Both the position numbers and the translations under genes were made by a program. Of a stretch of 64,000 bases of DNA, positions 1,533 to 6,150 are shown in pieces; position 1 is the first letter of the stretch; every line of letters starts with the position of its first letter. The notes under the pieces were generated by a model. That model was given only the letters and a program-made list of their open reading frames with translations. It was not told where the DNA came from and did no database searches. Source of the stretch: Halorussus pelagicus (GTDB lineage: Archaea; Halobacteriota; Halobacteria; Halobacteriales; Haladaptataceae); assembly GCF_004087835.1 (NCBI RefSeq), contig NZ_CP035119.1, positions 2,046,001-2,110,000 on the forward strand, read 5' to 3'.

Positions 1533-1907
1533 ATGGGAAATGAGAAAATATCCCGTCGAGCAGTGTTGAACAATGCGGCGAAAGCAGGCGGAGTCGGAGC
1601 CGCAGTGTCGTTCGGAGCCATCGGGAGCGTTTCTGCGACTGGTGAAATAGAGAACGATTCTGTCGAGACACAGTGTGCTGACGGAGACTATACGGTTATC
1701 GACGAGTGTACCTGTGTGGACCTCAACAATCAGTGCGAGGACCCGCCAAACAGTCCAGCCCTTTACTATCAAGTCAACTGGGAAAAGCGCGAGTACTGCG
1801 ACGGTCAGACCGTCTGGTACGCCGCCAGTGCTAACTGTGGCTACACGGCCGACTGTTCGCTTCCCAAATGTAACTCAGACCAGAGTCGCCCCTGCGACGG
1901 CGTCTGA
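1533..1907 (+). CDS. Small cysteine-rich Tat-exported protein, function unknown
   Basis: The 124-residue product starts with a twin-arginine signal (SRRAVLNNAAKAGG, residues 7-20) and a hydrophobic stretch ending near SVSATG at residue 36. The mature part of about 88 residues has nine cysteines, including TQC, DECTC, NQC, REYC, ANC, ADC, PKC and RPC. That is very unusual for haloarchaeal proteins, which are generally cysteine-poor. The pattern suggests disulfides formed after folding in the cytoplasm, or a metal site. No family was recognised. Short exported cysteine-rich halophile peptides include halocin C8-type precursors, but the cysteine arrangement here does not obviously match. AT-rich upstream DNA and a strong TATA box indicate its own promoter. 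Confidence 0.8.
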   Translation: MGNEKISRRAVLNNAAKAGGVGAAVSFGAIGSVSATGEIENDSVETQCADGDYTVIDECTCVDLNNQCEDPPNSPALYYQVNWEKREYCDGQTVWYAASANCGYTADCSLPKCNSDQSRPCDGV

Positions 1908-1977: not shown

Positions 1978-4900
1978 TTAGTCCGCCTTCGCCTGCCAGC
2001 CGCGAAGTCGGTCCTCGCTCACGCCCTGCACTTGCGAGGCCACGCGCTCAACTTCGGCGTCTTTCAGGTCCTCGATGCTCTCGATACCGGCCTCCGAGAG
2101 CTTTTCGGCGGTCTTCGACCCGATGCCGTCGAGCGATTCGAGGTCGCTTCCCGACTCGCTCTCGCGGGCTTGGAACTCCCGATAGTTGCAGATGGGACAG
2201 CCCAGTTCCCACGGTTCGTCGCCGCTGTGTACCACCAACTCCGGCAGGTCGTGTTCCTCACACCGCTCGTCCGTGACCTCGATGTCGCCCCGGCGCGGGA
2301 GCGGGAGCGAGTAGTCACAGTCGGGATACCGGGTACAGCCCACGAGCCGCGAGCCGTTCTGGAGGTGCTTTATCGCCAACTCGCCACCGTCCTCGTCGGC
2401 GGTGTCACCGCCTTCGTCTCGTTGCTCCTCCGGCCCAACGCCCTCGCCGCACTCCGGACAGACGCCAATCACCTTGTCCTCCTGCTCGTCGGCCTCCTCG
2501 GCCTTGCAGAGCGGACACCCGTGGACGAACGTCTGGCGACCAGCGAGCATCTTGACGTGGCGCAGGCCGTGGTCCCCACACTCCTCGTCCAAAATCAGGG
2601 GCTTGCCCGTGTTCGGGAGCGGCAGAGTGTACTCGCAGTCGGGGTAGCCGTCGCAACCCACGAAGTGCGACCCGTTCCGGCTCTGGCGCACCAGCAGTTC
2701 GTGGTCCGACTCGGGACAGGGACCGAGTTTCTTGTCGGCCTTCAGCGACTCCTGTAGCAGGTCGCCGACCTCCTCGCGCGACTCGCGCAACTCGGCGAAC
2801 ACCTGCTCCAGATACTCGCGGGACTCGTCTGCTACCTCGCTCAGGTCGGCCTCGCCCTCCGCGATGGCGGTCATGTCCTCCTCCAACTCGCGGGTCATCT
2901 CCTCGCTGACCACCAACTCCGCGAACTCCTCGGCCGCCGTGACGACGGCGTCGGCCAACTGGGTCGGCCGCGGCGGATCGCTCTCGATGTAACCGCGGTC
3001 GTAGAGCTTTTCGATGGTATTGTGTCGGGTCGAGTTGTGGACGATAACGCCGCCTTCGACCGCGAAGTTCGGTGCAGTCTCGTCGATGGTGAGGTCGTAC
3101 ACCCGTCCGTCGTAGTCGCGCGCTTCGACGTTCGTGACGGTAACGGTCGCCGGTCGCCGCTGTATCGTCGCGTAAATCGAATGCTCGAAGTCGGCTGCGG
3201 AGTAGTGGAAGCTTCGGTTCCCATCGCGGCTACGATTGCTTCCGTCGATTCGGGTCTCGATGTGGCCTTCCTCGTCGAGTTCACTGAGGGCGGTCCGGAC
3301 CACGGCCACCGACTCGTTTAACGACTCGCTAAGTTCTTCCGAGGTCATCTCGTCTACTGCGAGCGCTTCGAGTACGCGAGCCTTCCGTCGCATGACTGGG
3401 TAGCTGTCGAGTCGGTCGAGACCCCGATAGAACTTCTCGTCCGCGGCAATCGGAATCTCGTCGAGGAATCGCTCCAGATTCCGACGACCGCGAACGTAGA
3501 GCTTGTGCTGACTCTCGTTCAGCATCGCATCTATTCTCATCCCGTCGAGCATCGTAGAGACGCTGCGCAGGAGTTCGTGGTCGGTGTTGGAGATGAATGC
3601 CTTCCCGTCCGTCGAGATGTGGCCTTCGTCGTCGAACAGCGCGCCGACGAACGCCGGACGGAGTGCTTTCGGTACGCGGGGGCAACCGTCCTCCGTGACC
3701 GCATCGAGAACGAACCGAATAACTCGGCCGAGTGCTACGGGGAGCTGAACCTGATACTTCTGCTTGTGGTGGTCTTTACGCCCCGGTCTTTCCGTCACGT
3801 TCGGGTCGAAGCCGAAGACGGATTCGATGTCGGAGGCGAACCGCTCAATGAGCCGTCGGTCCGTGTTGTGATACCGGACATCCACCGTGTTCTCCGCTTC
3901 GTTGACGTGAACCGACCCGTCGCCGAGAAGATTCCCGAGTATCCTCGCTAGCTCCGGACTCCACTGAAGCGGGAACGGATTCGAAAACGTGGCGTCGTAG
4001 TTCAGCCCGTGGAGTTCGTCCGGTCGAATTCCGAGTTCGCCGAGAATCCACGCCGGAACGTCCTTGTCGTCGTTCTCGAAGTGCGAAATCTGGGCTCGGT
4101 ACGTTCCGATTCGGTCGGCGAGTTCCTGCTGAGTCGCGTCGCTCTCCCGACGATACTCTGCGAGTGCTTCGTTGCAGTCCACGCCGTAGAGTTTCGACGA
4201 TATGTCGCAGGAGGACACGAACTCTTCCCACGTCGCTACTATCCCCTCGCACTCGTCGGGTACCGCTGGGATTTGGCGCGACGCTATCAACTCGTCACCG
4301 TCACTGAGTTCTGCAACGGGAACGACCTGAATCTCTCCGTCGATTCGGGCGTACACCGGGTGGTCGTCGGTCGCCGAGAATCGCCCGGCAGTGGTCGTCA
4401 CCTCGAAGACGCGTTCGTCGGTCTCCATCGGACGAGCGCTCACCAACGTCTTCTCTCGCTCGGTCAGCCGTTCGGTACGTTCGTTTAGAGAGAGGACGGT
4501 CGGCCCGTCGTCGGTGACGGCGATGTCGGTATCTCCGTCGGCCATCACCACTTGGCCCTGCTCGAAGACTTCGGCTATCGGCTTTCGTTCGATGTCGTCG
4601 CCATCCTCGACGAGTACCTCGGTGTCTCCGGTCAGGCATTTCGTCCCAATCCCCATCTTCTCCATCGTCTCGATAAGCCGCGACTGGCCGTATCGGCGGG
4701 GCGGTTGGGTCTGCTTGTCCTCGATGCGGGCCGCTGTGACCGCCAACTCCTCGCCCTCGGTCACGTCCGGCACGTAGTTCTCGGAGGTGTTGAAGTAGGG
4801 GTAGACCGCGTGGTAGCCTTCTTCGAGGAGGCGCTTGCCGTTGGCCTTGAGTGTGTGGTCGCCCACGCCCGCGACGACTTTGAGGTGTTCCCACGTCGCG

Positions 4901-6150
4901 GACTCGGCGACGGTGGCGAAGAAGCGCCGGACGACGAGTTCGTAGATTTCCCACTCGTCGTCGCTCAGTTCGCCCTTCGCGGGGATGTCCTCTGTCGGGT
5001 GAATCGGCGGGTGGTCGGTGGTCTCCTCGTCGCCCTCGGTCGGTTCCAACTCGTCGAGGTCGAGCAGGTCGTCGGCGTCGTCGCCGAAGTGGTAGTCGCC
5101 CGAGAAGGCGTCGAGCAGTTCCTCGGGGTCCAAGTCGTCGGGGTAGACCGTGTTGTCGGTCCGGGGGTAGGTCATGTACCCCGCGGTGTAGAGGTCTTCG
5201 GCGATGCTCATCGCCTGCTGGGCGGAGTAGCCCAGACTCCCCGCCGCGCGAATGAACTGCGTGGTGTTGAACGGCGCGGGCGGGTCGTCGGTTCGAGTGC
5301 GCCGGTTGACGCGCTCGACGGTCGCCGCCGCGGCCGACTCCAGCGCCTCGAAGACGGCCTCCGCGGTGTCCTCGTCCCAGACGCGTTCGGCCTCGTTGTC
5401 GTCCTCGTCGCGGTAGAAATACTGCGCTTCGAACTCGACGACCTCCTCGTCCTCGCCGTCCTCGCTGTCGCTCTCTTTCAGCAGATCGGCGAACAGTTCC
5501 CAGTAGTCCTCGGGGTCGAACGCCTCGATTTCGCGCTCGCGGTCCACGATGAGTTTGAGCGTGGGCGACTGCACCCGACCGACCGAGATGAAGTCCTCGC
5601 CCAGTTGACGCGAGGAGAGCGAGAGGAACCGGGTGAGCGCCGCGCCCCAGATGAGGTCTATCTCCTGTCGGGCCTCGCCCGCGGCGGCCAAGTCGAAGTC
5701 CAACTCGTCGGGGTTCTCGAAGGCGCTCGTGACTTCGTTGTCCGTAATGGAGGAGAATCGGACCCGGCGAATCGGGACCTCCTCGTTCACCTCGCGGACG
5801 AGTTCCCACGCCTCCTTGCCAATGAGTTCGCCCTCGCGGTCGTAGTCGGTCGCAATCGTCACGGTGTCGGCCTTCCGGGCCAGCAGGCGAAGCGTCGAGA
5901 CGATGTTCTCCTTCGTGGCCTTCTTCTCGATTGGCGCGTCGATGAGTTCGACGGGTTCCACGTCGCGCCAGTCGTTGTACTCGTCGGGGAAGTCCACGCC
6001 GACGACGTGGCCCGAGAGACCGATACAGCGGCGGCCGCCCCACTTGTAGACGTTGACGCCGTTCTTGCGCTCGGCCTCGGCCGACTCGCCGCTCAGAATA
6101 TCGGCGATGCGTCTGGCCGCGTTGTCCTTCTCGGTGATTATCAGCTCCAT
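1978..6150 (-). CDS. topA: DNA topoisomerase I (TopA), intein-containing precursor
   Basis: Type IA topoisomerase, which relaxes negatively supercoiled DNA through a 5'-phosphotyrosine intermediate. The TOPRIM domain is at the N terminus, with TEK at residues 6-8 and the metal-binding DYDREGE at 102-108. The catalytic tyrosine is Y328 in MTYPRTD. A 535-residue intein (residues 505-1039) interrupts the conserved MGIGTK/STRHNTIE motif, which corresponds to GIGRPSTYA in bacterial TopA. The ligated extein would be 855 residues. The C terminus has repeated four-cysteine zinc ribbons (for example CPESD..VGCDGYPDCEY and CPECGEG..GCTRYPDCDY) and a final helix-hairpin-helix (LDGIGSKTAEKLSEAGI). Activity requires splicing out the intein. 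A strong Shine-Dalgarno just upstream supports the start at 6150. Confidence 0.95.
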   Translation of the reverse strand: MELIITEKDNAARRIADILSGESAEAERKNGVNVYKWGGRRCIGLSGHVVGVDFPDEYNDWRDVEPVELIDAPIEKKATKENIVSTLRLLARKADTVTIATDYDREGELIGKEAWELVREVNEEVPIRRVRFSSITDNEVTSAFENPDELDFDLAAAGEARQEIDLIWGAALTRFLSLSSRQLGEDFISVGRVQSPTLKLIVDREREIEAFDPEDYWELFADLLKESDSEDGEDEEVVEFEAQYFYRDEDDNEAERVWDEDTAEAVFEALESAAAATVERVNRRTRTDDPPAPFNTTQFIRAAGSLGYSAQQAMSIAEDLYTAGYMTYPRTDNTVYPDDLDPEELLDAFSGDYHFGDDADDLLDLDELEPTEGDEETTDHPPIHPTEDIPAKGELSDDEWEIYELVVRRFFATVAESATWEHLKVVAGVGDHTLKANGKRLLEEGYHAVYPYFNTSENYVPDVTEGEELAVTAARIEDKQTQPPRRYGQSRLIETMEKMGIGTKCLTGDTEVLVEDGDDIERKPIAEVFEQGQVVMADGDTDIAVTDDGPTVLSLNERTERLTEREKTLVSARPMETDERVFEVTTTAGRFSATDDHPVYARIDGEIQVVPVAELSDGDELIASRQIPAVPDECEGIVATWEEFVSSCDISSKLYGVDCNEALAEYRRESDATQQELADRIGTYRAQISHFENDDKDVPAWILGELGIRPDELHGLNYDATFSNPFPLQWSPELARILGNLLGDGSVHVNEAENTVDVRYHNTDRRLIERFASDIESVFGFDPNVTERPGRKDHHKQKYQVQLPVALGRVIRFVLDAVTEDGCPRVPKALRPAFVGALFDDEGHISTDGKAFISNTDHELLRSVSTMLDGMRIDAMLNESQHKLYVRGRRNLERFLDEIPIAADEKFYRGLDRLDSYPVMRRKARVLEALAVDEMTSEELSESLNESVAVVRTALSELDEEGHIETRIDGSNRSRDGNRSFHYSAADFEHSIYATIQRRPATVTVTNVEARDYDGRVYDLTIDETAPNFAVEGGVIVHNSTRHNTIEKLYDRGYIESDPPRPTQLADAVVTAAEEFAELVVSEEMTRELEEDMTAIAEGEADLSEVADESREYLEQVFAELRESREEVGDLLQESLKADKKLGPCPESDHELLVRQSRNGSHFVGCDGYPDCEYTLPLPNTGKPLILDEECGDHGLRHVKMLAGRQTFVHGCPLCKAEEADEQEDKVIGVCPECGEGVGPEEQRDEGGDTADEDGGELAIKHLQNGSRLVGCTRYPDCDYSLPLPRRGDIEVTDERCEEHDLPELVVHSGDEPWELGCPICNYREFQARESESGSDLESLDGIGSKTAEKLSEAGIESIEDLKDAEVERVASQVQGVSEDRLRGWQAKAD
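3034..4638 (-). mobile_element. Intein with LAGLIDADG homing endonuclease inside TopA
   Basis: The element is in frame from Cys505 to Asn1039 of the precursor. Splicing blocks seen are the N-terminal CLTGDTEVLV (Cys1 nucleophile), block B with DDHPV near 595, and the C-terminal VYDLTIDETAPNFAVEGG ending in VIVHN with Ser as the +1 residue. Two LAGLIDADG-like helices, ILGNLLGDG (736-744) and FVGALFDDEG (834-843), mark the homing endonuclease, and both keep an acidic residue. Two extra segments look like DNA-binding helix-turn-helices: an XRE-like one near 662-705 (TQQELADRIGTYRAQISHFE) and a winged-helix-like one near 918-982 (TSEELSESLNESVAVVRTAL). All splicing residues appear intact, so it is probably active in splicing. 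Confidence 0.93.

Follow-up and report, generated by a model that had tools for sequence, protein, structure and literature searches.

A mobile topA intein in Halorussus pelagicus whose putative homing endonuclease is probably a three-part unit, a LAGLIDADG core between two helix-turn-helix domains

The DNA topoisomerase I gene (topA) of Halorussus pelagicus is interrupted by an intein that we consider, with good but not complete confidence, to be a mobile element aimed at topA, with an endonuclease that is one inherited unit of three parts: an XRE-type helix-turn-helix (HTH) domain, a two-motif LAGLIDADG core and a winged HTH domain, nested together within the Hint splicing domain, whose HTH domains would grip DNA. 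Its features within the 64,000-nt stretch of DNA analyzed (the window) are as follows.

1978..6150, minus strand: topA precursor (DNA topoisomerase I plus intein), 1390 aa (NCBIfam PRK07220.1, E 3.6e-286)
3034..4638, minus strand: intein, 535 aa, at GIGTK/STRH (Pfam Intein_splicing, 42.4 bits, cut-off 35.8)
4273..4638, minus strand: Hint N-part (splicing), intein residues 1–122 (TIGR01445, 32.6 bits, cut-off 24.5; AlphaFold model; retained in mini-intein L024)
3985..4242, minus strand: XRE-type HTH domain, intein residues 133–218, HTH helices 156–201 (Pfam, AlphaFold model, homologue cut-offs, profile matches)
3427..3984, minus strand: LAGLIDADG_3 endonuclease core, intein residues 219–404 (Pfam LAGLIDADG_3, E 1.5e-14, 54.5 bits, cut-off 22.5)
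3184..3426, minus strand: winged HTH domain, intein residues 405–485 (Pfam, AlphaFold model, homologue cut-offs, profile matches)
3034..3156, minus strand: Hint C-part (splicing), intein residues 495–535, terminal HN (TIGR01443, 16.4 bits, cut-off 15.6; alignment)

The host protein is an archaeal topoisomerase I, and the intein occupies precursor residues 505–1039, from C505 directly after GIGTK to HN1039 directly before STRH. It interrupts a conserved host motif without shifting the reading frame and has the hallmarks of a Cys1-type Hint intein (C1, a TxxH block at T90–H93, an invariant H534–N535 and S+1). The initial annotation had placed a 535-residue intein in this motif, and its coordinates (3034–4638) proved exact to the base. 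The extein of 855 aa that it proposed was likewise confirmed. TopA is uninterrupted across the GIGTK/STRH junction in 17 of 17 Halorussus congeners, so that an insert-free host allele exists. Elsewhere in the window, a Cys-rich protein of 124 aa, with a twin-Arg-like signal at its disposal, is encoded at positions 1533–1907 (plus strand); Pfam gave no match to it, and a search of 40 related genomes a single weak relative.

The domain architecture was modeled with AlphaFold from an 18-sequence alignment (pLDDT 85.1, pTM 0.86). In the resulting model, the two parts of the Hint domain enclose an HTH domain, a LAGLIDADG core with two motifs and a winged helix. Both HTH domains (predicted pLDDT ~75–95) fold outside the LAGLIDADG core in this model. 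In intein numbering, the XRE-type domain has helices at 156–165, 170–177, 181–188 and 196–201 with short flanking strands, coinciding with the XRE-like HTH first noticed at precursor residues 662–705 (intein 158–201); the winged domain has helices at 414–428, 433–440 and 444–456 followed by the strands of a beta wing at 460–465 and 476–481, over the winged-helix-like segment first noticed at 918–982 (intein 414–478). Pfam scans of the isolated segments of the window protein gave HTH_19 (E 5e-6) and DprA_WH (E 1.6e-4), both slightly under curated cut-offs; homologues from DPANN genomes exceed such cut-offs (HTH_3, 34.6 and 27.8 versus 23; HTH_24, 28.7 versus 21.9; MarR_2, 27.5 versus 27). Furthermore, the family profile of the N-side domain matches solved HipB and 434 repressor chains (about 1e-5 to 7e-4) as well as MBF1-like chains, and that of the winged HTH matches solved AdcR, ArsR-type and Lrs14 chains (1e-7 to 1e-3). 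Fold and profile match thus assign the segments to the XRE/Cro type and to the ArsR/MarR-like winged type, respectively, with the window sequence itself under the Pfam cut-offs. Since distant homologues exceed the cut-offs and the family profiles recover solved HTH chains, both segments are, as far as computation shows, real HTH domains, predicted to be separate from the LAGLIDADG fold as was initially supposed. The core between them carries two LAGLIDADG motifs, LLGDGS (237–242) and GALFDDEGH (332–340), acidic residues included, as in a two-motif homing endonuclease; every TopA intein and free-standing enzyme that was read retains these presumptive catalytic residues.

Full-length relatives of the intein were found in 18 of the 392 genomes sampled in the order (its own included), all at the same junction, 532–540 aa long and 51–62% identical. 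Both HTH domains are present in all 18 aligned inteins (with a shorter wing in L018) and in further full-length haloarchaeal TopA inteins, so the search for the two insertions that the initial annotation had proposed found them in every full-length haloarchaeal homologue. A 167-aa mini-intein at the same junction (L024) retains Hint and lacks the N-side HTH, LAGLIDADG core and winged HTH together. In divergent pairs, dN/dS of both HTH domains is about 0.05–0.25, similar to LAGLIDADG and Hint, a range that places both under purifying selection as estimated from these alignments. Intein and extein trees are in strong conflict, as expected for a mobile element: the L010 intein falls within intein family f8 and its extein does not (AU 2.6e-57), and L011 and L012 share 56% identity in their inteins versus 89% in their exteins. 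The TopA intein, by the measure of these trees, moves horizontally. All six matches in a wider search of the phylum (393 sampled genomes) came from its own genome or the same order; no match was found in plasmid and phage collections, and a search of viral contigs returned short Hint or chance matches only.

Beyond the haloarchaea, a genome scan identified same-junction TopA inteins in MAGs titled Woesearchaeota, Aenigmatarchaeota and Nanoarchaeota, and a fragment in one MAG titled Thaumarchaeota; a further same-site intein (L181) came from the search of 371 DPANN genomes described below. The DPANN inteins (29–33% identical) carry the N-side HTH and, mostly, the winged HTH. Every one that spans the N-domain has it; the winged HTH occurs in L052–L055, L058 and L181 and is cleanly absent from L056 and L057. 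The Pfam scan of L181 gave only a C-side HTH_5 match, under cut-off, and no HTH match in the N-domain. Because L056 and L057 retain the acidic residues, the winged HTH is, to judge from their sequences, not indispensable, at least for persistence.

The same layout also occurs outside inteins. A search of 371 DPANN genomes with the intein profile yielded three non-intein ORFs at E <= 1e-25, which are separate genes of 365–385 aa lying on the topA strand directly upstream of a complete topA with an empty insertion site (LGTK/ATR or LGTK/TTR). A profile including these ORFs recovered a fourth gene, adjoining topA in divergent orientation, whose topA was read as an N-terminal 398-aa frame. The four (L185–L187 and L198, in DPANN genomes G950, G713, G874 and G1049) thus comprise three beside a complete, intein-free topA and one, L198, whose topA was read in part; that these ORFs might be interruptions of topA was ruled out by their flanks and by the complete topA in three cases. 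None of 17 other free-standing genes examined has topA within about 1.5 kb (4/4 versus 0/17, Fisher test P-value 1.7e-4, for candidates pre-selected with the profile). Because profile A3 contained three of the four topA-adjacent genes, the ranking was redone with an intein-only profile, and the four took ranks 1–4 of 38 candidates, all chosen with A3, the fourth by a small margin over the next (86.2 versus 84.3 bits).

At the C-terminal end, HTH_5 is matched in 15 of 18 free-standing proteins and the intein and free-standing profiles agree (E 6.4e-12). The N-domain profiles match more weakly (hhalign E 1.4e-7 over 35 columns) and Pfam HTH matches are nearly absent among free-standing N-domains; their reading as HTH draws on this 35-column match and on an AlphaFold model of the L186 enzyme (pLDDT 88.6) with a helical, HTH-like N-region. 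The initial description of the two HTHs as "extra" segments did not hold: every full-length haloarchaeal TopA intein, most of the DPANN ones at this site and free-standing endonucleases share the same three-domain unit. Shared by the DPANN same-site inteins, lost en bloc in the mini-intein and arranged alike in free-standing genes, the two HTHs are most readily understood as belonging to the endonuclease.

Some other free-standing genes have neighbors of their own. Each of four sister pairs (L199/L206, L203/L208, L210/L212 and L200/L202) adjoins the same conserved gene in different genomes, the shared neighbors being, by eye, hjc (Holliday junction resolvase), a hel308-like helicase gene, carA/carB and endA (tRNA-splicing endonuclease). 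This recurrence suggests that DPANN hold gene-linked free-standing homing endonucleases.

An unrooted tree built from 58 LAGLIDADG domains separates TopA inteins, together with free-standing DPANN enzymes, from the other sampled inteins (support 99/97). The TopA inteins group as one clade (100/98), divided into a haloarchaeal and a DPANN half. Support is lacking (64/0) for the branch that sets every free-standing gene apart from them, and the unrooted tree gives no direction or order of events. A single clade of TopA inteins and topA-adjacent genes was not recovered in the best tree, a grouping that is nevertheless not rejected (AU 0.29). Descent of the intein and free-standing forms from one topA-directed endonuclease is uncertain, and we propose only tentatively, as somewhat less probable than its opposite, that one archaeal lineage dedicated to topA leads two lives, inside a same-site intein in haloarchaea and DPANN and as a free-standing gene beside intein-free topA in DPANN.

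To place the HTH pair among inteins, we delimited 123 LAGLIDADG inteins in haloarchaeal loci, picked non-randomly by similarity to the TopA intein. HTHs were found in representatives of several alleles: MCM (C-side, some with more than one), XPB-type helicase (C-side), and SpoVR-like and AtpA (N-side, under cut-off). This census ruled out the notion that HTHs are rare in inteins. These inteins resemble the TopA intein as LAGLIDADG elements with HTHs in their linkers and differ in that scanned representatives had an HTH on one side only, with no good match to the winged-HTH profile (best domain E 0.039), and in that their cores, where sampled, lie on the opposite side of the tree. The Halorussus pelagicus genome itself holds an XPB-type helicase intein (L090, contig 2, about 43.5–50 kb) with HTH_3 above cut-off and, following its LAGLIDADG core, a second HTH-like segment, as well as further inteins (L087, L088 and L089), by eye in B-family DNA polymerase, PolII large subunit (short) and MCM.

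Archaeal inteins commonly carry HTH accessory domains (PMC8966425), two solved ones among them, so that HTHs as such are not new, and the initial remark that such additions are known in principle stands. The supposition that the pairing is unusual stood in part: an N-side XRE with a C-side winged HTH was absent from the other haloarchaeal inteins sampled, but it recurs in same-site TopA inteins and in free-standing endonucleases. The top Foldseek matches to our model are the endonuclease-bearing archaeal inteins PI-TkoII (PDB 2cw7, the best, 1.2e-16), PI-PfuI and TliVMA (PDB 7qss), with single-domain matches to CzrA and an Archaeoglobus HTH regulator lower down. Like the TopA intein, TliVMA and PI-TkoII combine archaeal Hint, LAGLIDADG and an HTH-like accessory domain, which in TliVMA lies between the endonuclease and the Hint C-part; the TopA intein differs in host gene and in having an XRE HTH on the N-side besides the winged HTH on the C-side, and PI-TkoII has a further domain IV. 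Passages of Soucy et al. 2014 (PMC4071816) on the haloarchaeal topA intein allele, which matches ours in gene and lineage, record a few large topA inteins and contain no reference to HTH domains, DPANN homologues or free-standing relatives.

A role of the HTHs in homing-site recognition is plausible by analogy, TliVMA being the measured precedent: without its HTH-like accessory domain it bound DNA less well and no longer cut a second site, grafting the domain conferred that site, and the isolated domain gave no added affinity (PMC8966425). Most likely, the enzyme is a homing endonuclease directed at topA, and its two HTHs extend or adjust how it binds target DNA. The LAGLIDADG core would cut intein-free topA at the insertion site, the HTHs would bind close to the cleavage point and thereby set or widen specificity, and the intein would be copied into the cut gene during repair.

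Three other explanations were weighed against this reading. The HTHs might be separate add-ons, captured singly from host transcription factors and merely decorating an ordinary intein endonuclease. Such capture of accessory domains was proposed by Beyer et al. 2022 (PMC8966425), and it fits the varying positions and numbers of HTHs in many other inteins, including the C-side location of the XRE-like HTH in MCM inteins. We nonetheless regard it as unlikely here, given that the N-XRE/C-winged-HTH layout recurs in TopA inteins of haloarchaea and DPANN as well as in free-standing enzymes, and given the position of the TopA core on the free-standing enzymes' side of the tree. That the HTH segments are no true HTHs, being either normal elements of the LAGLIDADG fold or matches by chance, is scarcely credible: the single-sequence Pfam scores of the window protein are compatible with it, and the DPANN scores over cut-off, the profile matches to solved HTH proteins and the folds predicted outside the core speak against it.

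Autoregulation, in which the HTHs would let the excised intein repress topA or the intein itself, gained no support in this analysis and is in our view quite improbable. Both HTH types are repressor types, some free-standing relatives lie directly upstream of topA, and the LAGLIDADG-HTH transcription factor WhiA is a structural (Foldseek) match of like layout. WhiA is a bacterial regulator whose nuclease domain is degenerate; the TopA intein, unlike WhiA, keeps its acidic residues, as do all TopA inteins and free-standing enzymes read, and its distribution is scattered, with apparent horizontal movement. A three-part endonuclease directed at topA remains our preferred reading.

Two questions are open in the field: how inteins come to carry endonucleases, and what their HTH accessory domains do. 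As the same three-domain enzyme occurs in an intein and in free genes, some beside an intein-free target, matched natural pairs, among them natural versions lacking the winged HTH alone, can be used to test how endonucleases are acquired, whether targets are shared and what each HTH contributes. If the two-lives proposal is true, the lineage would offer a natural intermediate for an intein gaining or shedding its endonuclease, and would belong to a larger group of DPANN homing endonucleases that are free-standing and linked to particular genes.
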